IMG/VR virus record: IMGVR_UViG_3300018411_000059
Location: 1-31,023 of that record
From: a virus
Strand: one strand, 5' to 3'
Length of the DNA stretch: 31,023 nucleotides
Position 1 is the first letter of the stretch, and each line of letters opens with the position of its first letter. Below are positions 4,837 through 12,496 of this stretch, one piece after another. The position numbers and the translations under genes are program-made. The notes under the pieces are model-generated. The model ran no database searches. It saw nothing but the letters and a program-made list of their open reading frames with translations, and was not told where the DNA came from.

Positions 4837-5379
4837 TTAAATGTTTGAATCAACCCGACTCACTTCACCACTATCAATTAGTGCGAGTATATCAAGAAAT
4901 TCAACCCCAAACTTCTCATAAAACTGAACAATAAATTCCTCACGTTGATACGCAATCCCGTCAAGTGCGTACGCAATAAAGTAACCGCCCTCATGAAATA
5001 TCCGATTATAACCACAATTAAACTTCCATGTTTCACACAAACCCCCTTCCCAGTTGCAAAATGTGAGCCATAACTCATCATTCTTACGAGCGTCATAAAA
5101 GAACCAGAAACCCTTCCTGAATACATTCAAATTCCCGTTATGAAATAATATGTAACTTTTATCACCATAGAATCCCCATGTCTTGTACTCAGGAGGGTAA
5201 AATAAACTGTCTCCGTAACGTATAATAACATCTCCACCCTCAACCTCTACATAGAACCATAAAGGCATATCTTTTATCCCAGCTTTAACACGATGAACAT
5301 AAATACGCCCATCAACATCTATCCTATCACGCTCCCAGTTAATACTATCACCGTTAATTACAATCTTTTGATCTTTCAT
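4837..5379 (-). CDS. hypothetical protein, first gene behind module B
   Basis: 180 residues, ATG at 5379 after AAAAGGAGA. It opens with INGDSINWERDRIDVDGRI and has Trp- and Phe-rich strands (MPLWFYVEVEGGDVIIRYG, SYILFHNGNLNVFRKGFWFF), matching the 4072-4581 protein along its first two thirds. The C-terminal helix (EFIVQFYEKFGVEFLDILAL) resembles the end of the 5956-6183 protein (CEEFYEIFGADFEDVCLV). It is therefore the best-preserved member of a small local family. It leads a likely operon 5379-3557, driven from module B. Function unknown. Confidence 0.78.
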   Translation of the reverse strand: MKDQKIVINGDSINWERDRIDVDGRIYVHRVKAGIKDMPLWFYVEVEGGDVIIRYGDSLFYPPEYKTWGFYGDKSYILFHNGNLNVFRKGFWFFYDARKNDELWLTFCNWEGGLCETWKFNCGYNRIFHEGGYFIAYALDGIAYQREEFIVQFYEKFGVEFLDILALIDSGEVSRVDSNI

Positions 5380-5402
5380 AAGAACCGTCTCCTTTTGTTA
5401 TT

Positions 5403-5511
5403 GTACCACATAGGTACTTATTCTAAACCGTGCTACTCCCTGTAGCACGCACCTCTACCTCTTAAATATAGTATATAAAAAACTATACGGTATTGATACC
5501 TTTTTATTCGG
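5403..5511 (-). promoter_or_regulatory. promoter and double-hairpin leader module B
   Basis: On the minus strand: the upstream box (5511-5486, 21 of 26 matches to the box of module A), -10 TATACT (5475-5470), a hairpin CGTGCTAC/GTAGCACG (5429-5436, 5442-5449), the conserved AATAAG linker, a hairpin GTACC/GGTAC with a 5-base loop (5403-5407, 5413-5417), then the SD of the 5379 gene. Element order and spacing match modules A and C while the stem sequences differ, which points to conserved structure rather than chance. Transcription probably starts near 5463. Confidence 0.65.
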
Positions 5512-5754
5512 ATTACTTTGGTTTTCTTTGGCTGCCATTATAAAAACCATCCGAAGTTGCCAGTCCATTCTGTATTTATCTCCATCTACAAAAATAAAAA
5601 CTAACCATAACCATTATAATTTTCTCCTAAAAAATAATTCTACCTAATCTATACTATTATAACACCTAAACTTATATAGACTAACCCGTAATAGAATGTA
5701 AATACAATAGAAAGAGTATAGACCGTATAAGTAGTATAGAAACATATTAAGATC
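5512..5754. other. non-coding stretch with decayed peptide remnants
   Basis: No credible gene. On the minus strand near 5534-5625 there are short Trp/Gly/Asn-rich reading fragments (NYNGYG then stop; TEWTGNFGWFL then stop) that echo the decayed peptide in 6945-7400. A divergent copy of the 36-bp repeat begins ACTTATATAG at 5670 and ends near 5705. The rest is AT-rich without clear signals. Confidence 0.4.
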
Positions 5755-5875
5755 ATTTATATAGCCGAAGATGTTCTATTACAAAAATATACTTATATAG
5801 CCAAAGATGTTCTATTATAAAAATACACTTATACCGTAGGCGATGTACTGTATAAAAATATACTTATATAGCCAA
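5755..5875. repeat. 36-bp tandem repeats with hairpins
   Basis: Three adjacent units, 5755-5790, 5791-5826 and 5827-5861 (36, 36 and 35 bp), plus the first 14 bases of a fourth. Each contains a stem such as TTATATAG paired with CTATTATAA (one bulge) around a loop with GATGT. In unit 3 the stem becomes TTATACCGT/ACTGTATAA, with changes on both sides that keep most pairs. There are no spacers, so this is not a CRISPR array. Iteron-like origin, protein binding array or tandem RNA hairpins are possible. Confidence 0.6.
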
Positions 5876-5925
5876 CGGGGTAGAGCCCACTCCGTTCCAC
5901 ACCCAAGTGACCCACCGGTCACACA

Positions 5926-5952
5926 CCGTACAGATACCTACAGACTCCATAT
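5926..5952. repeat. dispersed 'ACAGATACCTACA...CTCCATAT' repeat, copy 1
   Basis: First of four related copies, with others at 6212-6252, 6317-6357 and 7307-7323. It shares CCGTACAGA with the 7307 copy and ACAGATACCTACA with the 6212 copy. It lies at the 3' side of the 5956-6183 gene and touches its stop codon region. Function unknown; it looks like a fragment of a duplicated module. Confidence 0.5.
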
Positions 5953-5955
5953 ACA

Positions 5956-6183
5956 CTATTCTACCACCTCAATCCATATACTGTCCCTAACCAAACACAC
6001 ATCTTCAAAGTCCGCTCCGAAGATCTCATAGAACTCCTCACACCATGTAAGCCACTCATAGTGTACTCCATCATTCTTTGTAAAAGAGTTGTCTTCGTTC
6101 CATTTTGCAGACACAACCGTACCACCATCTGCAATACTGATGAATTTTTCACCATTTTTAGTTATTTTTACGTTAATTTCCAT
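5956..6183 (-). CDS. small hypothetical protein of the local paralogous family
   Basis: 75 residues from the ATG at 6183, with TGGAGA five bases upstream; the in-frame ATG at 6195 has no SD. The N-terminus forms a beta-like hairpin (INVKITKNGEKFISIADGG). The C-terminus (EWLTWCEEFYEIFGADFEDVCLVRDSIWIEV) resembles the ends of the 4837-5379 and 3021-3455 proteins. It is a solitary gene in a repeat-rich region, with no promoter module of the A/B/C type in front of it. Function unknown. Confidence 0.65.
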   Translation of the reverse strand: MEINVKITKNGEKFISIADGGTVVSAKWNEDNSFTKNDGVHYEWLTWCEEFYEIFGADFEDVCLVRDSIWIEVVE

Positions 6184-6211
6184 GATTTTCTCCATTTCTG
6201 TTGTTTTTGTT

Positions 6212-6357
6212 AACCATCAATACAGATACCTACAAAGCCATATTTGATGTTGTTCAACCCATATGACCCCTAGGCGGACCGACTTTTTTGTTTGTTTTTG
6301 ACCCATTTTGAGGGGCAAACCATCAATACAGACGCCTACAAGCTCCATATTGATGTT
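6212..6357. repeat. two dispersed repeat copies with terminal inverted arms
   Basis: Copies at 6212-6252 and 6317-6357 share AACCATCAATACAGA..CCTACAA..CCATAT.TGATGTT. In the second copy CATCAAT and ATTGATG form 7-bp inverted arms around a 24-base core; in the first, CATCAA/TTGATG remain. Downstream of copy one, CCATATGACCCCTAGG..GACCGACTT resembles 7338-7363, so a larger module was duplicated. This covers the gap between the genes ending at 6183 and 6388; no gene is seen here. Confidence 0.55.
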
Positions 6358-6387
6358 TTCAGCTTTTAAAACCCCCTCCCGAACCTC

Positions 6388-6741
6388 TTAATACCTGAAA
6401 AATCTTCCAGGTATTACAAGTTCCTCTTCCATATCCTCCTCATCGTTTGTATAGTTGAATACAAACCCGAGGATGTTCATAGTACTTCTGCCTCTGCTAC
6501 CGAGATCAGAAGCAATCCGATAGACCCATTCATCCACACTTACTCCATTAGTCACTTTATCCTTTGTGCTATCCGCAAACCTCTCCACTTGCTGATGAAG
6601 TAGAGTGATTTCTTCCTTGTCGGTAACTATTGTTACCGACAAGGACTCCATTACTCTTCTTTCGAATGTTTCCACAAAAGGGAATAGTTTATTCAAGCTG
6701 TAAGGTGTTATGACCGTTGTTCCACATGTGTAAGTTTGCAT
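6388..6741 (-). CDS. hypothetical protein behind module A, with coding hairpins
   Basis: 117 residues, ATG at 6741 after AAAGGAGA. Predicted mixed alpha/beta with an acidic C-terminus (NDEEDMEEELVIPGRFFRY); no family recognised. The DNA holds three strong inverted repeats. AATACCTG/CAGGTATT lies at 6390-6415. GTTTGTAT/ATACAAAC at 6445-6466 is nested inside ATCCTC/GAGGAT. A perfect 14-bp stem with a 4-base loop at 6614-6645 is nested inside an 8-bp stem at 6602-6657. The last one encodes SLSVTIVTDKE. Such structures inside coding sequence are unusual and resemble the 7447-8512 operon. A single-gene unit driven by module A is likely. Confidence 0.7.
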   Translation of the reverse strand: MQTYTCGTTVITPYSLNKLFPFVETFERRVMESLSVTIVTDKEEITLLHQQVERFADSTKDKVTNGVSVDEWVYRIASDLGSRGRSTMNILGFVFNYTNDEEDMEEELVIPGRFFRY

Positions 6742-6767
6742 TTTGAATCTCCTTTGTATTTATCATT

Positions 6768-6901
6768 GTACCGTTCAGGTACTTATTTTGTTCCGTACAG
6801 CTACCGATTAGCCGTACAGATGTCCTTTGAATAGACATAGCTCTGCCTATTCATATATACAGTGTATCAAACGTATACGGCATTAAAAGGTTTTTATTCG
6901 G
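6768..6901 (-). promoter_or_regulatory. promoter and hairpin leader module A
   Basis: On the minus strand: the 26-bp box (6901-6876), -10 TACACT (6866-6861), a 7-bp hairpin at the probable 5' end of the RNA (6828-6834/6847-6853), a 12-bp stem with two wobble pairs and loop ATCGG (6792-6803/6809-6820), the AATAAG linker, a GTACC/GGTAC hairpin (6768-6772/6778-6782), then the SD of the 6741 gene. The box is identical to that of module C at 25 of 26 positions, over 3 kb away. Confidence 0.68.
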
Positions 6902-6944
6902 TATTTTTGCAAAAATTTACGGGGTAATGGTGTGTATGTGGTTG

Positions 6945-7400
6945 TTATTCCGTTGGTGTACGGACAGTGGTTAAACGGTTTGTGGTGTTTATGCGGTAGT
7001 TGGTGCAGTGGAGAACGGTGTGCATATGGTGTTTGTGTGGTGTAGTTGGTTTCCAATAATCGGTGCCATAACCGTTCCAGTTTTCGGCAGCCATATGTCC
7101 CACATACTCCACATACTCTCCATTCAGGTTCCAAATATCTTCCAAATTCCCACGGAAACCGATTGCCTTGTAACCATTCCCCATAACTTGGTTAAAAAAC
7201 CATCATTCCCATGGCGCACCGATTATTTGCCAACCATCCCCAGTATGACCGGAATAGTCTCCAGTTTTCGGCAGCCATGGTGAATAACATCCAACCCCAA
7301 ATAGAACCGTACAGACTCCATATCACCATCTTTCAAGCCATATACCCCATAGGGAAACCGACTTCTCCATAACCGTTCCAGTTTTCGGTGATTGGACGGA
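6945..7400 (-). pseudogene. decayed repeats of a Trp/Gly/Asn-rich peptide
   Basis: No intact gene with an SD is seen, but minus-strand frames hold related fragments separated by stops: ENWNGYGEVGFPMGYMA, GDYSGHTGDGWQIIGAPWE, GNGYKAIGFRGNLEDIW and YVGHMAAENWNGYGTDYW. At DNA level, CCATAACCGTTCCAGTTTTCGG occurs at 7066-7087 and 7367-7388, and CCAGTTTTCGGCAGCCAT at 7077-7094 and 7261-7278. The simplest reading is an ancestral repeated small protein broken by indels and stops. A 79-residue frame at 6945-7184 includes one fragment but has no SD. An alternative is a DNA repeat with chance coding potential. Confidence 0.4.
7307..7323. repeat. dispersed repeat, copy 4
   Basis: CCGTACAGACTCCATAT is a shortened version of the element at 5926-5952. 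The following sequence (7338-7363, CCATATACCCCATAGGG..ACCGACTT) matches the flank of the 6212 copy, supporting segmental duplication. Confidence 0.45.
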
Positions 7401-7412
7401 TCCGAATAGCAA

Positions 7413-7443
7413 TAAAAAAAGCAGGCATATTTCAGCCTGCCTT
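7413..7443 (-). terminator. intrinsic terminator of the 8512-7447 operon
   Basis: Immediately after the stop of the 7447-7848 gene, the minus strand has GCAGGC (7440-7435), an 8-base loop, GCCTGC (7426-7421), then a run of seven T (7420-7414). This is a standard Rho-independent terminator and defines the end of the three-gene operon. Confidence 0.85.
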
Positions 7444-7446
7444 CCC

Positions 7447-7848
7447 TTAATGATGTTGCAAACGTGCAAAGTTGTATAAAACGTCTGCAAAATCTTTGTT
7501 TAAAATATATAACAGGTCATTATCACGACTATCTAAGGTAATAAGACCTGTTTTCTCAATAGCCTTGAAAAACGTTCTCAGCTTATCAAGGCTGATGTCA
7601 TTATTAAGTGTCTGATCTGCATATACAGACTTCTCAGTCACTTTACACTCATACATGAATAATTCACTCTTTTTGTAATAAGAATAAAACTCATCACTCA
7701 TACCTATTGCATGAGCTTGTATTTCCTTCAAGCTCATGCAATCCTGATCAGACAATGAGCATATTGTCATTGCCTGAAAGACTAATCTATAATTGAAGTT
7801 ATGAGCTAGCTTTTCAAAAGCTAGCTCATATTGATCAGATAATAGCAT
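7447..7848 (-). CDS. hypothetical protein encoded in hairpin-tiled DNA
   Basis: 133 residues, ATG at 7848 preceded by AAAGGT; one base separates it from the stop of the 7850-8035 gene. The protein is predicted helical (YELAFEKLAHNFNYRLVFQAM, LDKLRTFFKAIEKTGLITLD), and the C-terminal half has the feel of a small winged-helix or helical bundle, though I recognise no family. The DNA is exceptional: at least eight inverted repeats cover it, including a 14-bp perfect stem (7706-7719/7729-7742) and a 15-bp perfect stem with a one-base centre (7800-7830) that encodes YELAFEKLAH. Its SD and ATG lie in another 12-bp stem (7833-7859). Last gene of the operon. Confidence 0.72.
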   Translation of the reverse strand: MLLSDQYELAFEKLAHNFNYRLVFQAMTICSLSDQDCMSLKEIQAHAIGMSDEFYSYYKKSELFMYECKVTEKSVYADQTLNNDISLDKLRTFFKAIEKTGLITLDSRDNDLLYILNKDFADVLYNFARLQHH

Positions 7849-7859
7849 ATTATCTGACC
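7833..7859 (-). promoter_or_regulatory. hairpin enclosing SD and ATG of the 7848 gene
   Basis: GATCAGATAATA (7833-7844) pairs with TATTATCTGACC (7848-7859) over 12 bp, one of them a G-T wobble, with a 3-base loop. On the minus strand the ATG (7848-7846) straddles the loop, and part of the SD plus the upstream stop codon are in the stem. Initiation would need the stem to be opened, for example by ribosomes finishing the upstream gene; this coupling is inferred. Confidence 0.55.
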
Positions 7860-8035
7860 TTTATTTTTAGAATAATATAGCAGAACACTGCAATACCTAT
7901 CATAGCAGTGTTACAAAACACTGTTTCAGCGTCCTTCACTGTCAAAGTGAAGGCTGAAACAGTTGAGGTTTTTTGTAGCAGGCTAAAAATGTTGCCTGCT
8001 ACAATTACGAAAAGTACAAGTTTAATGTCTCTCAT
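7850..8035 (-). CDS. small putative two-span membrane protein
   Basis: 61 residues, ATG at 8035 after AAAGGAT. Two hydrophobic segments (about 4-20, IKLVLFVIVAGNIFSLL; about 42-57, NTAMIGIAVFCYIILK) flank a short polar region, and the C-terminus is basic (KIKVR). Size and topology would fit a small holin-like or accessory membrane protein, but position in the early arm gives no support for lysis. The coding DNA consists of three consecutive hairpins: 7884-7912, 7920-7963 (18 bp with a 3-base bulge) and 7973-8004 (11 bp). Middle gene of the operon 8512-7447. Confidence 0.65.
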   Translation of the reverse strand: MRDIKLVLFVIVAGNIFSLLQKTSTVSAFTLTVKDAETVFCNTAMIGIAVFCYIILKIKVR

Positions 8036-8092
8036 GATATCAATCCTTTATGTTATAGGCTAGCCCTTTTAGGCTAGCCTTAATTGTTTGTT

Positions 8093-8512
8093 TTAAGCCT
8101 TTTTCTTAGTTTTAGGCTTTTTTGTTTCAAGTTCAAGTGCAGTCAATATTGACTGCTTGAAAACTAATTTATCAATCTTCACGTCGAAAAACGACGTGAA
8201 AACGTCCTTTGCTTGCACGTGTTCTGCAATCCTTAAGCGATTTTTGAGGCGATAATTTGTTGCCTCAAACAGTTTAGTTAAGGCAAAGAATGACACCTCA
8301 TTCTTCCCTGCACTATGCAGGGATTTAACTGCATCGACGATTATATCGTCGATTAAACTCGTTTCAGTACGTTTTCCTTTTTTAAAGCGAGTACTCTTAA
8401 ATAGAGTGCTTTTCTCACTTGAAGAGCTTATAATGTTTCTCTCTTCTTCAGGAACACTTTCAGCTTCTGTTAAAATGTCAAGAACGTTGATTGATTTCTT
8501 TTCTGTAGTCAT
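8093..8512 (-). CDS. basic hypothetical protein, first gene of the hairpin-tiled operon
   Basis: 139 residues, ATG at 8512 after AAAAAGGAAT. The N-terminal third is polar and acidic (TEAESVPEEER, SSSSEKS), the middle basic (FKKGKRTETSLIDDIIVDAV), and the C-terminus ends in a Lys tail (ETKKPKTKKKA). A helical core (about 60-125) follows. A basic tail fits nucleic-acid binding, but that is inference. The coding DNA has at least seven consecutive inverted repeats (8132-8412), several perfect with 8-9 bp arms. It is transcribed from the promoter at 8655-8683 through a leader with entangled stems. Confidence 0.72.
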   Translation of the reverse strand: MTTEKKSINVLDILTEAESVPEEERNIISSSSEKSTLFKSTRFKKGKRTETSLIDDIIVDAVKSLHSAGKNEVSFFALTKLFEATNYRLKNRLRIAEHVQAKDVFTSFFDVKIDKLVFKQSILTALELETKKPKTKKKA

Positions 8513-8520
8513 GATATTAT

Positions 8521-8648
8521 TCCTTTTTCTTTTAATACGCTCATGTTAAGAGTGCAGCGAATGAGCGTACTTATTTTGTTTAGATATAGCAATCCCTTTG
8601 ACTGCCTGTGCTGCACTCTGTTTGTAAAAGAACTGTTTCGCTCTGTTG
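8521..8648 (-). promoter_or_regulatory. leader RNA with pseudoknot-type entangled stems
   Basis: On the minus strand the leader carries AGAGTGCAGC (8619-8610), then TACGCTCAT (8569-8561), then GCTGCACTCT (8558-8549), then ATGAGCGTA (8544-8536), then the SD. Stem 1 (10 bp) and stem 2 (9 bp) are both perfect and interleaved (a-b-a'-b'). The 4-base link across stem 1 is short for 10 bp, so the stems may be mutually exclusive rather than coexisting. The AATAAG linker before stem 2 is shared with modules A-C. Confidence 0.65.
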
Positions 8649-8699: not shown

Positions 8700-8772
8700 T
8701 TGTAAAAAAAAATGCAAGAGTATTGTAATTACAGTGTTCTTCAGTTGCAATATTATTGCAAACAGCTTGCAA
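8700..8772. promoter_or_regulatory. TTGYAA array at 11-bp spacing, probable operator
   Basis: TTGCAA occurs at 8745, 8756 and 8767, exactly 11 bp apart. On the same grid lie TTGTAA at 8723 and ATGCAA at 8712, while the 8734 position is degenerate. TTGTAA is also at 8700 and, inside the promoter spacer, at 8661. One-turn phasing places all copies on one face of the helix, as expected for cooperative binding of a regulator between the divergent promoters. Confidence 0.6.
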
Positions 8773-9084: not shown

Positions 9085-9594
9085 ATGGCTAAAGTAAAAA
9101 AGAAAAACGATATAAACACAAAGGTAGGTAGCTTAGGTATTATTAAGGGCAACGGTGTTGAGGCGTTTGACTTTGCACGTACTTGTGATGAAGACTGTCC
9201 TTTATATGATCATTGTAATAACGATAAGGAAGGTAAGTGTGCAGTGCATGTGATGTACATGGATTATGTGCAGCAGAGGTTAGGCGTTCACTTCTTAAAG
9301 AACCTTGACGACGTGAGCAAGTTAAAGGTCAGTGTTGAGTTATTTCCTTTGTTTAAGCAACTACTCACCTTTAAGCTTTATGAAGCCACACTTCCCCTAA
9401 GCCAAATAACTAATGATAAAGGGGGCGTTAACGGTGTGTACAGGGAAATGCGTCAGGTTATTGTAGCTATTAATAACTTGCTTGATGATTTAGGTGCTAA
9501 CAACAAGCGTGTTAAGGCTGCAAAGGGTAAGGAGAATGTTACAGACGCTGACTTTCATAGTAAGTTATTGAAGGGTGAGGTGAAGAATGCCTAA
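9085..9594 (+). CDS. candidate terminase small subunit, cysteine-rich
   Basis: 169 residues. It lies immediately upstream of the large terminase and overlaps it by 8 bases, the usual place and size for a small terminase subunit, which recognises phage DNA and recruits the large subunit. I do not recognise a DNA-binding helix-turn-helix with confidence. The N-terminus is basic (MAKVKKKND) and is followed by C34-x3-C38-x5-C44-x7-C52, a possible zinc or iron-sulfur site unusual for small terminases. The middle is helical (LFPLFKQLLTFKLYEATLPL, REMRQVIVAINNLLDDL). The functional call rests on position; a packaging-linked protein of unknown type is the alternative. Confidence 0.6.
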   Translation: MAKVKKKNDINTKVGSLGIIKGNGVEAFDFARTCDEDCPLYDHCNNDKEGKCAVHVMYMDYVQQRLGVHFLKNLDDVSKLKVSVELFPLFKQLLTFKLYEATLPLSQITNDKGGVNGVYREMRQVIVAINNLLDDLGANNKRVKAAKGKENVTDADFHSKLLKGEVKNA

Positions 9595-12496
9595 GTTGCG
9601 TAGCAGGAAGCGTAATTTGCGTGAGGAGAGGGGCAGTGATAAGGTCTTGAAGAAGGGCAGACCTATTAAGGCTGAGAAGACACGTGAGGAGATACGGTAT
9701 CAGGACGGTGGTGATGGTTTTGTAAAGTTCATTGAGGACTTTGTATGCTTTAAGATCTTTCCCATTAATGATCCCATGCCTCGATGGACACCTGTTAAGG
9801 AGTTGCCTGACACTCCTCACCCTGACACTTCACGCTCATACTGGGAGATGTGGCTTAAAGAGAAGGAAGTGTTAAAGAAGGCGTTAGAGATGGATGACAA
9901 CGGCAACTTCTTGCATCGTGTGATTGTTTTGTGCTGGATGCGTGGTGAGGGGAAGTGTCAGGCTAAAGGCTCAAAAGTTATTATGTGGGACGGGAGTTTG
10001 AGGAAGGTTGAAGACGTTCAGGTAGGTGATCTTCTTATGGGTGACGATTCAACACCTCGAAAAGTTTTAAGTCTTGCTTCTGGAGAAGAGGAGTTGTTTG
10101 AAGTTATTCCTTATAGAGGTACTCCTAAGACGTTCACAAAAGATCATGTACTATCTTTAAAGAACAGTTCAGGCAATGTTGTTGATATATCTATCAAGGA
10201 CTATTTATTAAAGAATAAGTCTTTTAAAAGGAGTCATTATCTTTATCATGTGCCTATTGAGTTTGAAGATAAGGAAGTTTCTATCAGTCCTTACTTTTTA
10301 GGGTTATGGCTTGGGGACGGTTCAAAGCATGCTACGCATATAACAACACCAGACAAAGAAATAGTTTCCTATCTTGAAGAGCATGCAGACTTATTAGGTT
10401 TGCGTGTTACAGAGCGTGTTAAGAATAAGGGAGAAAATAAAGCTAAGACTTATTGCACTGTAGGTTCAACACGAGGGGAGTACCATAATAATTCGTTATT
10501 ATGGAGAATGAAGGATTATGATCTTATTAATAATAAGCATATTCCTCATGATTATAAATGCAACTCAAGAGAGAAGCGTCTTGAACTTCTTGCAGGGATT
10601 ATTGACAGTGACGGATACTTAAATAGAAACTCGTTTCAAGTAACTCAAAAGAGTAAAACTTTGACTGACGATATTGCATTTCTTGCAAGGTCATTAGGTT
10701 TTTTTGTGAATGTTTCTAAGTGTACTAAAGGAATTAAGGAGACTGGTTTTTCTGGTGAGTACTACACTATTGGGATTTCTGGCGATTGTTCTATAATTCC
10801 TTGCAAGGTTGAAAGAAAGAAAGCTAGTGTTAGGAATCATAAGAAAGATGTACTTTGTACTGGGATTAAGGAGATTAAGAGTGCAGGCGTGCAGGAATAT
10901 TATGGGTTTGAGCTTGACGGTAATCATCGCTATGTTTTAGAGGACTTTACTGTAACTCATAATTCGTTTTTAGCATGCTTGATTCAGTTATGGAAGTTCT
11001 TTTGCTTTCCAGACCAGCAAATAGTACTAGGAGCTAACTCAAAAGATCAAAGTAAGTTTGTCCACTTTGACATTATCTGTGAGATCATTCAAAATTCTCC
11101 AAAACTTCTTGCAATAGTTAAGCGTGAGAACATACAACAGAAAGAAATACGCATCCTTGATGAGAATAAAAAGATTGTGAGTGCTATTAAGAGTATTAGT
11201 AGTTTTAGCGGTATTGTTTCTAACATTACTGGGTATACTTTTTCTGAAATCTTTGACATGAAAAACCCTAAGTTCTTTACGCAGCTTGACGGCTCTACAA
11301 GGAACGTGCCTAACGCTCTTGGAGTTATTGACAGTACAGTTTCAGAAAAGACTCACATACTTTATAGGTTGTACAAGGCTTATACTAAGGCTGAAGACCC
11401 TTCATTATTTTTCTCATATCGTTGTTCCCCTACTGCTGATGCGAACGATTTTTGGCATCCTTACATGACTCAGACACAATTAAACTCTTTTAAGACGAAG
11501 TTTTTGCCTGCAGATTATGATAGGTACTTTAAGAATACTTGGGAGAGTGGAGAAAATACTGTCTTTACTGAGGACATGATTAAGTGTTGTAGGTATATTG
11601 GTTTTGATGGGCAGTTAGGTATGCAGCAAAAACTAATAAGGCTATTTAAAGATGCTAAAAAGCTTGCAGAAAACCCTTCAATGAGGGAAATACCTGATTT
11701 TGCTCATGTAGATTCAGATTTACAAAAGGTTATTCCTATTAATAAGGTGTATTCCTTTAATGATGAGAGGGGAATCCCTAAAATGATGTCCCTTGAAGAA
11801 CTGCACAGGCTTTCTGACTATTATGATACTGATTTTTCTCTTGGTGTTGGGATTGACAGGGCTGACCCTCTTAAAGACGACCTTACAAGGGGTGCAAGGA
11901 CTATTGTGACTGCAATTCTTAAAGGTTTACATGGCAGCAGGAGTCATGTAGGTTTATATGAAGAGGCAGAGCAGGACTATATTTACTTTTGTGCTGGTAT
12001 GTGGCACTTAAAAGGGAACGATTTGAACTCAATCAAGGCTGTTCTTGACGAAATTGTGACTGAACTCTTCTCTATTGAGAGTGTTTGCGGTGAGAGATGG
12101 GGCTTATGGGATTTAGTTGACTGGTGTGATGATAATGACGTCACATTTTCGGCAATTAGTCCTACATACGACCTTCAAAAGACTGCATTCTCAGAATTAC
12201 ATACTCTTATAAGGGAAGGAAGATACAAAACTCCCTCAATCCCTATTCAGGGAAACACTTTTGACGACATTTTTCAGGAAGAAGCACTTAAATTTGTGCA
12301 TGATAGTAAGAATCGGTTTTATGGAAGTCCTGAAAAGCATGAAAACTACGGTGTGCAAGACGATTCTATGTTTGCTAAAGCTTGGGGACTTTATGGATTG
12401 AGGTTGTTAAACCCTGACGATTTTGTTAAAAGAAGTTTTAATAAGTTTATGGGTATGTTTATGGAAGATAAAAATAATAGGAGACTTATACAATGA
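9587..12496 (+). CDS. terL: terminase large subunit interrupted by an intein
   Basis: 969 residues as translated; 633 after removal of the intein (residues 124-459). The large subunit is the ATPase that drives DNA into the prohead and the nuclease that cuts concatemers. The joined extein restores a terminase-type Walker A, MRGEGK-S, with the intein between K123 and S460. A probable Walker B region is YTFSEIFD (E554). RNase H-like nuclease residues are probably D757 (GVGIDRADP) and D925/D926 (QDDSMFAKAW). GAGGTG precedes the ATG, and the gene overlaps its neighbours on both sides by 8 and 4 bases. Assignment as TerL is firm; the exact acidic residues are inferred from motif shape. Confidence 0.93.
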   Translation: MPKLRSRKRNLREERGSDKVLKKGRPIKAEKTREEIRYQDGGDGFVKFIEDFVCFKIFPINDPMPRWTPVKELPDTPHPDTSRSYWEMWLKEKEVLKKALEMDDNGNFLHRVIVLCWMRGEGKCQAKGSKVIMWDGSLRKVEDVQVGDLLMGDDSTPRKVLSLASGEEELFEVIPYRGTPKTFTKDHVLSLKNSSGNVVDISIKDYLLKNKSFKRSHYLYHVPIEFEDKEVSISPYFLGLWLGDGSKHATHITTPDKEIVSYLEEHADLLGLRVTERVKNKGENKAKTYCTVGSTRGEYHNNSLLWRMKDYDLINNKHIPHDYKCNSREKRLELLAGIIDSDGYLNRNSFQVTQKSKTLTDDIAFLARSLGFFVNVSKCTKGIKETGFSGEYYTIGISGDCSIIPCKVERKKASVRNHKKDVLCTGIKEIKSAGVQEYYGFELDGNHRYVLEDFTVTHNSFLACLIQLWKFFCFPDQQIVLGANSKDQSKFVHFDIICEIIQNSPKLLAIVKRENIQQKEIRILDENKKIVSAIKSISSFSGIVSNITGYTFSEIFDMKNPKFFTQLDGSTRNVPNALGVIDSTVSEKTHILYRLYKAYTKAEDPSLFFSYRCSPTADANDFWHPYMTQTQLNSFKTKFLPADYDRYFKNTWESGENTVFTEDMIKCCRYIGFDGQLGMQQKLIRLFKDAKKLAENPSMREIPDFAHVDSDLQKVIPINKVYSFNDERGIPKMMSLEELHRLSDYYDTDFSLGVGIDRADPLKDDLTRGARTIVTAILKGLHGSRSHVGLYEEAEQDYIYFCAGMWHLKGNDLNSIKAVLDEIVTELFSIESVCGERWGLWDLVDWCDDNDVTFSAISPTYDLQKTAFSELHTLIREGRYKTPSIPIQGNTFDDIFQEEALKFVHDSKNRFYGSPEKHENYGVQDDSMFAKAWGLYGLRLLNPDDFVKRSFNKFMGMFMEDKNNRRLIQ
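9956..10963 (+). other. LAGLIDADG intein inside TerL Walker A
   Basis: 336 residues. It starts with C124 (CQAKGSKVIMWDGSLRKV, a typical intein block A), includes a block B-like TFTKDHVLSL, and ends with block G VTHN (N459) before S460, the +1 nucleophile. Splicing would join K123 to S460. Two LAGLIDADG motifs are present, LGLWLGDG (238-245) and LAGIIDSDG (335-343), each with acidic residues in place, so the homing endonuclease may be active. Block F is near YYGFELDGNHRYVLEDF. All splice-junction residues look intact. Insertion in the ATP-binding loop is typical of inteins, which favour conserved active sites. Confidence 0.93.

Follow-up and report, generated by a model that had tools for sequence, protein, structure and literature searches.

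Hairpins tile the coding sequences of a three-gene phage operon, with perfect stems far in excess of shuffled controls

We describe an operon of three small genes (A, B and C) of a tailed phage in which hairpins with uninterrupted stems follow each other nearly end to end inside protein-coding sequence. The stretch that runs from the leader to the terminator (7407-8620) holds 16 perfect stems of at least 8 bp, compared with 0.74 expected from dinucleotide shuffles and a maximum of 5 in 200 of them. We suggest, at about even confidence, that the A-B-C mRNA is selected to be folded throughout and that its translation is gated at the starts of A, B and C.

Results

Operon layout

The window, by which we mean the whole stretch of DNA analysed, covers 31,023 nucleotides (positions 1 to 31,023) of the 31 kb viral record IMGVR_UViG_3300018411_000059, a tailed phage by gene content. 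Structural genes lie on its + strand and small genes without assigned function on its - strand. The A-B-C operon forms the head of the leftward-transcribed (- strand) genes. Its features, in the order of transcription, are:

8722-8750, - strand: weak promoter-like sequence TTGCAA-17-TACAAT, upstream of the leader
8536-8619, - strand: H-type pseudoknot of the 5´ leader, two interleaved stems
8093-8512, - strand: gene A, 139 aa, basic, hairpin-tiled
8333-8353, - strand: 9-bp hairpin in A
8305-8323, - strand: 8-bp hairpin in A
8286-8305, - strand: 8-bp hairpin in A
8243-8269, - strand: 8-bp hairpin in A
8178-8200, - strand: 9-bp hairpin in A
8139-8156, - strand: 9-bp gapless palindrome in A
8057-8080, - strand: A/B intergenic hairpin, 9 bp with a loop of 6, its end 21 nt upstream of the ATG of B
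7850-8035, - strand: gene B, 61 aa, hairpin-tiled
7973-8004, - strand: 11-bp hairpin in B, both arms identical in the homologous operon (L009)
7920-7963, - strand: 11-bp stem in B around an 8-bp stem (7933-7953)
7884-7912, - strand: 8-bp hairpin in B, equivalent stem at L009 1198-1226
7835-7857, - strand: 10-bp hairpin over the B/C junction, covering the stop codon of B and the start codon of C
7447-7848, - strand: gene C, 133 aa, hairpin-tiled
7800-7830, - strand: 15-bp hairpin at the start of C, encoding YELAFEKLAH
7706-7742, - strand: 14-bp hairpin in C; at L009 1010-1044 a 10-bp hairpin of other sequence
7561-7593, - strand: 8-bp hairpin in C
7447-7414, - strand: intrinsic terminator 3´ of C

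The promoter-like sequence matches at 9 of 12 positions, and such sites are no commoner in the window sequence than in shuffles. None of the three proteins has a convincing family match in PHROGs, Pfam, PADLOC, NCBIfam or PDB. Read by eye, B has a signal-peptide-like start and a hydrophobic segment. C is possibly a winged helix, at low confidence; it also gives a sub-threshold match to CoV_RPol_N (E 0.012), the sole polymerase-like match among A, B and C. Predicted structures of A and C (pLDDT 44 and 48) were too poor for a fold search.

A BLAST search found a sole relative of the operon, in IMGVR_UViG_3300035105_000248 (L009, L012, L017), where the proteins are 56-72% identical (A 65%, B 72%, C 56%). 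No further copies were present in the viral contigs, genome contigs, phage records and plasmids searched. The next most similar long contig (G007, near-identical to G008 across the structural genes) ends just before the operon. The promoter-like counterpart in L009 is TTGACA-17-TG-AATTAT at 1988-1960. The 3´ hairpin of the L009 operon carries no U tract on the sense strand, so the 3´ end has no clear terminator there. An HNH gene directly follows the operon in L009 (489-719).

Hairpin excess

The original prediction, made from the sequence of the window, was that the operon is tiled with hairpins, thirteen of them with stems of at least 8 bp and loops of up to 15 bases. A direct scan gives the same number: between 7561 and 8353 there are 14 perfect stems of at least 8 bp with loops of up to 20 nt, 13 of which have loops of up to 15 nt. 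The rest of the window has 0-4 such stems per kb. The predicted extent, 7456-8412, indeed holds hairpins, and the structured stretch further includes the leader up to 8619 and ends at the terminator. As had been noticed, the stems are coding and mutually unrelated in sequence, with no direct-repeat family joining them; the 15-bp stem, on the - strand, is the longest perfect arm (13 bp in the L009 operon). Counts of stems in the three codon registers (11, 8 and 7) reveal no clear preference.

Comparison with codon-preserving shuffles, suggested as a check, gives folding z values (sense/antisense) of -5.6/-7.0 for A, -5.3/-5.0 for B and -8.5/-6.7 for C. Perfect stems number 6, 3 and 3, against 0.38, 0.32 and 0.43 expected. 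Gene 4837-5379, named beforehand as a neighbour lacking the pattern, is at -0.1/+1.3, and other settings agree. Among the 32 window genes tested, the level of A, B and C is reached by just one more, which belongs to a separate unit:

6388-6741, - strand: fourth hairpin-rich gene, 117 aa, z -5.0/-5.1, 3 stems compared with 0.32 expected

This gene contains a 14-bp perfect coding stem (6614-6645) and has hairpins also in its leader, with 4 perfect stems in 6301-6860 where 0.16 are expected. No homologue of it was found among the related contigs searched. In lambda, 50 kb of T4 and phiERICV (138 ORFs), no gene reaches -4.5 on both strands, and stems number at most 3-4 per kb. Pooled over seven genes, 29 perfect stems of at least 8 bp stand against 3.2 expected (z 13.5). 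The summed energy z is -18.3/-16.9, compared with -14.4/-11.2 for MS2 and -11.9/-12.3 for Qbeta (all codon-preserving).

Chance, composition or an assembly artefact as the source of the excess is practically impossible, given the shuffles, the 138 ORFs of three unrelated phages and the presence of the pattern in an independent contig.

Structures at gene starts

The leader pseudoknot consists of a 10-bp stem S1 (8619-8610/8558-8549) and a 9-bp stem S2 (8569-8561/8544-8536), whose end lies 23 nt upstream of the ATG of A. The leader in L009 shares this topology with unrelated sequence; its stems are 12 bp and 9 bp, and 22 nt separate its end from the ATG. A scan of about 122 kb gave just one other site with two interleaved stems of at least 9 bp. 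The A/B hairpin of L009 (1391-1366) has 11 bp and a GAAA loop, differs in sequence and ends 20 nt before the ATG of B. At the B/C junction of L009, an AAAGG/CCTTT stem encloses both the stop codon of B and the start codon of C in its loop. Elements at gene starts thus hold their position between the two phages while their sequences are unrelated, with the spacings read by eye from the sequences.

Turnover of hairpins inside the genes

The L009 operon is as hairpin-rich as that of the window (19 perfect stems, 0.89 expected), with z of -5.8/-5.5 for A, -5.4/-6.3 for B and -9.4/-7.3 for C. Loss of pairing in homologues had been put forward as an argument against the pattern. Pairing is not lost in L009; the expected compensatory changes in register are few, because the hairpins move. 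For example, at the place homologous to the 15-bp hairpin of C, L009 has a 12-bp hairpin of different sequence and register: the window carries TATGAGCTAGCTTTT-G-AAAAGCTAGCTCATA and L009 carries TTGAAAGAGCGT...ACGCTCTTTCAA, which is shifted and encodes other residues.

When the two operons are compared by protein-guided alignment, A shares 0 base pairs, B shares 20 (null mean 4.3) and C shares 42 (null mean 16.3, maximum 40). Pairs common to both folds are nearly all unchanged and few are compensatory. Synonymous conservation within shared stems shows no significant rise (0.61 vs 0.44, P 0.11). Across these two operons, on which the comparison rests, hairpins inside the ORFs mostly turn over, with B as the exception. 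The hairpin at 7973-8004 is present, besides the window, in just one viral contig, and B of L009 has the same two-part stem arrangement as that at 7920-7963.

Marks of RNA and of DNA

Several facts point to the transcript. In the window, the enrichment includes the leader and the ORFs and stops at the intrinsic terminator; the spacer next to the operon has 1 stem (0.57 expected) and the sequence downstream 0 (0.13 expected). The spacer next to the L009 operon has 2 stems, with 0.97 expected. Together with the spacing kept by the start-site structures, loop features point in the same direction: loops are most often 3-5 nt long, and, read on the sense strand, 3 of the 7 four-base loops fit GNRA or UNCG, compared with none on the antisense strand; these numbers are small and include one canonical tetraloop of the 3´ hairpin.

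Other facts point to a process at the DNA level. The enrichment of helices with G.U pairs does not exceed that of helices with A.C pairs (z 2.7 vs 2.6 at 8 bp); A.C on one strand corresponds to G.U on the other. Because of this, and because antisense folding is as extreme as sense folding in A, B and C, the pairing in itself carries no mark of the RNA strand. The excess lies in perfect Watson-Crick stems, and the best 37 helices contain 365 pairs with 7 interior mismatches. Further, it had been proposed that synonymous positions are chosen for pairing. They are, but this is not the sole basis, as amino-acid order is biased to hairpin-compatible peptides too. Potential stems of at least 12 bp due to amino-acid order have z of 3.6, 3.7 and 1.7 for A, B and C in the window and 1.8, 2.7 and 2.5 in L009, compared with an average of about 0.4 (range -1.5 to 2.3) in 11 control genes.

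Discussion

A proposed model of a folded operon

In the model that we favour, the A-B-C mRNA would stay folded over its whole length, leader included, with local hairpins one after another. The pseudoknot before A, the hairpin before B and the hairpin that holds the start codon of C would gate initiation of translation, and translation of C would probably be coupled to termination of B. Hairpins inside the ORFs would hold the rest of the transcript folded. There, selection would act on pervasive pairing and on no particular fold, so that single hairpins might be replaced. The near-perfect arms would probably be made and repaired by short-range template switching during DNA replication and then kept because the transcript must stay folded. 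The facts on the RNA side and those on the DNA side fit together if both parts of this model apply.

Of the four meanings offered for the hairpins at the outset, a structured mRNA that controls translation has the best support, namely the limits of the transcription unit and the kept spacing of start-site structures. The hairpin excess, its limits, the turnover and the start-site structures kept in position are observed; we infer that the RNA folds in the cell as predicted and that translation is controlled in this way. Protection from a host nuclease, or a decoy for one, was also among the four and is a further candidate. Candidate benefits might be slower or gated translation, resistance to nucleases or shielding from RNA-binding proteins. 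In dsDNA viruses generally, structure is reduced near start codons (PMC3072339), so the structured starts of A, B and C run against the trend. Perfection of quasi-palindromes by template switching, another of the four meanings, probably contributes; near mismatch-free stems, G.U not above A.C and the turnover of hairpins speak for it. In RNA genes, template switching has been shown both to give rise to hairpins and to maintain them (PMC8794818), and we suppose that it makes the arms here.

The main rival is a purely mutational origin, since G.U pairs are not favoured over A.C. A hot spot of template switching would perfect quasi-palindromes and homogenize their arms, while the hairpins would be functionless and merely tolerated by the proteins. 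It can draw on the scarcity of interior mismatches, on the concentration of the excess in perfect stems, on the different hairpin places in the two phages and on the shaping of amino-acid order, and the pattern resembles that in mitochondrial genes of Nematomorpha (PMC6649704) and that of template-switch events in yeast (PMC8604942). However, a process confined to the DNA locus should fill the unconstrained spacer too, and the non-coding spacers beside the operon lack enrichment in both phages, which favours a folded transcript. Nearly all other genes of both genomes are normal, and the start-site structures hold their spacing though their sequence is unrelated. Mainly because of the spacers, we rank the mutational account second and regard it as rather unlikely, if still a serious contender.

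Strand symmetry of perfect inverted repeats would also suit a function of the DNA itself, with the region single-stranded or extruded as a cruciform, e.g. as replication origin, packaging site or bait for an SbcCD-like hairpin nuclease. The cumulative GC skew has its minimum at about 8-9 kb, a possible origin location, and an SbcC-like protein is among the genes of related contigs scanned. Yet the change of skew coincides with divergent transcription as well, the intergenic spacer, as the natural place of an origin, is free of hairpins, and such a function does not account for why the coding part bears them. We consider it improbable. Still less credit, and indeed very little, is due to a large structured non-coding RNA of the GOLLD, ROOL or OLE sort with incidental ORFs, which was among the original suggestions. 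It would fit structure that continues over about 1.2 kb and includes a pseudoknot and a terminator, but the window, L009 and L012 have no Rfam match at gathering thresholds, and the proteins A, B and C are conserved while the fold inside the ORFs is not conserved in register.

Comparison with known systems

Structure in the genomes of MS2 and Qbeta is selected at the RNA level. Like A-B-C, the coding sequences of these Leviviricetes are structured far above codon shuffles, with comparable energy z. An excess of long perfect stems is absent in MS2 and little in Qbeta, whereas A-B-C is built of uninterrupted Watson-Crick stems. Moreover, A-B-C is part of a tailed DNA phage, and A, B and C have no replicase match. 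The operator of T4 gene 32 contains a pseudoknot, and gene 32 is not known for tiled hairpins in its coding sequence. According to PMC535899, the gene 32 leader of the related phages T4 and RB69 carries a structured translational operator that is alike in shape but has diverged in sequence between them. The leader of A resembles it in that interleaved stems lie upstream of the start in both the window and L009. By this analogy it might serve as an operator; unlike gene 32, A is not recognizably a single-stranded DNA-binding protein.

The closest precedent is found in coding palindromes of Nematomorpha mitochondria. There, as in A-B-C, perfect inverted repeats occur in conserved coding sequence with few imperfect ones, and they are gained and lost between relatives with involvement of non-synonymous positions (PMC6649704). 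Template switching was proposed for them; given how perfect and dynamic the repeats are, the authors favour repeat conversion rather than a function (PMC6649704). By the features of that type, A-B-C has the coding excess, the few imperfect repeats and the turnover, and does not have the long arms of tens to hundreds of bp. The Nematomorpha repeats measure up to 284 bp and are scattered over many organelle genes (PMC6649704), whereas the phage stems of 8-15 bp lie nearly end to end in one operon, with start structures kept in position. In the hairpins of PMC8794818, perfect stems can arise or be mended in one event that gives a multi-base compensatory change, which is possible for A-B-C as well; those hairpins belong to RNA genes, while A-B-C is protein-coding mRNA. 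Rickettsia palindromic elements are also palindromic DNA within ORFs, but they are copies of a repeat family (PMC6649704), unlike the mutually unrelated stems described here.

A-B-C is a natural joint solution of protein-coding and pairing constraints over about 1 kb. It exceeds ssRNA phages in perfect pairing, and its homologue has most hairpins replaced. It lets one ask what maintains long perfect coding stems, selection acting on the transcript or mutation through template switching, and a phage group for such a study is now identified, in which a GATase-like gene is structured too.

Wider occurrence and other repeats

In distant relatives (portal protein about 45% identical), two genomes have a strongly structured GATase-like gene, with z of -9.0/-8.0 and -8.1/-6.4 and helices that are mostly interrupted:

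L006 1147-1932 (- strand) and L024 18556-19338 (+ strand): GATase-like gene with a class II-like start (MCIIISNWG), z -6 to -9

The 160 ORFs scanned in relatives average z -1.2. It may be general in this phage group that structured coding sequence is tolerated or favoured. A bolder proposal is that this group evolves coding transcripts into chains of hairpins, with foldedness as such selected and single hairpins freely replaceable; we put it forward tentatively, as possible though on balance doubtful. The gain might be, for example, escape from host RNA-targeting defence, from RNases or from a competing RNA-binding protein. If true, a coding RNA would be defined by its degree of folding, not by its fold.

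Gene K of the distant relatives has an uncertain start codon and was left out. A comparison of stems among the close relatives L024, L026 and L029 was likewise set aside for the operon, as a repeat family (GTTGGATAAATA) makes up much of the DNA there; the stem changes are a mixture of G.U, A.C and mismatches, few of them compensatory. AT-rich non-coding regions upstream of the small terminase gene (L006 5880-7400, L004 2870-5200) are full of inverted copies of GTTGGATAAATA, which differ among closely related phages. These non-coding inverted-arm repeats are a different matter from the operon hairpins.

In the window, degenerate direct repeats (families D1-D4 and D7) occupy spacers before several small - strand genes in 5394-7388, as if they were shared leader or promoter modules. 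At 7008-7388, CCATAACCGTTCCAGTTTTCGG and TCCAGTTTTCGGCAGCCAT are repeated in or near ORF 6945-7184, and a similar repeat seems to be present near L009 1-260. Among the genes of L019 (IMGVR_UViG_3300035545_000502) and of L017/L018, taken as one set in the scan, are an SbcC-like palindrome-endonuclease subunit, a RusA-like resolvase and a DNA ligase. The terminase large subunit of the window (9587-12496, + strand) is interrupted by an intein with a LAGLIDADG homing-endonuclease domain, inserted at the apparent Walker A motif (GEGK/C...N/S). This intein is absent from L002, L003, L004, L006 and L011 and present also in 82%-identical relatives.
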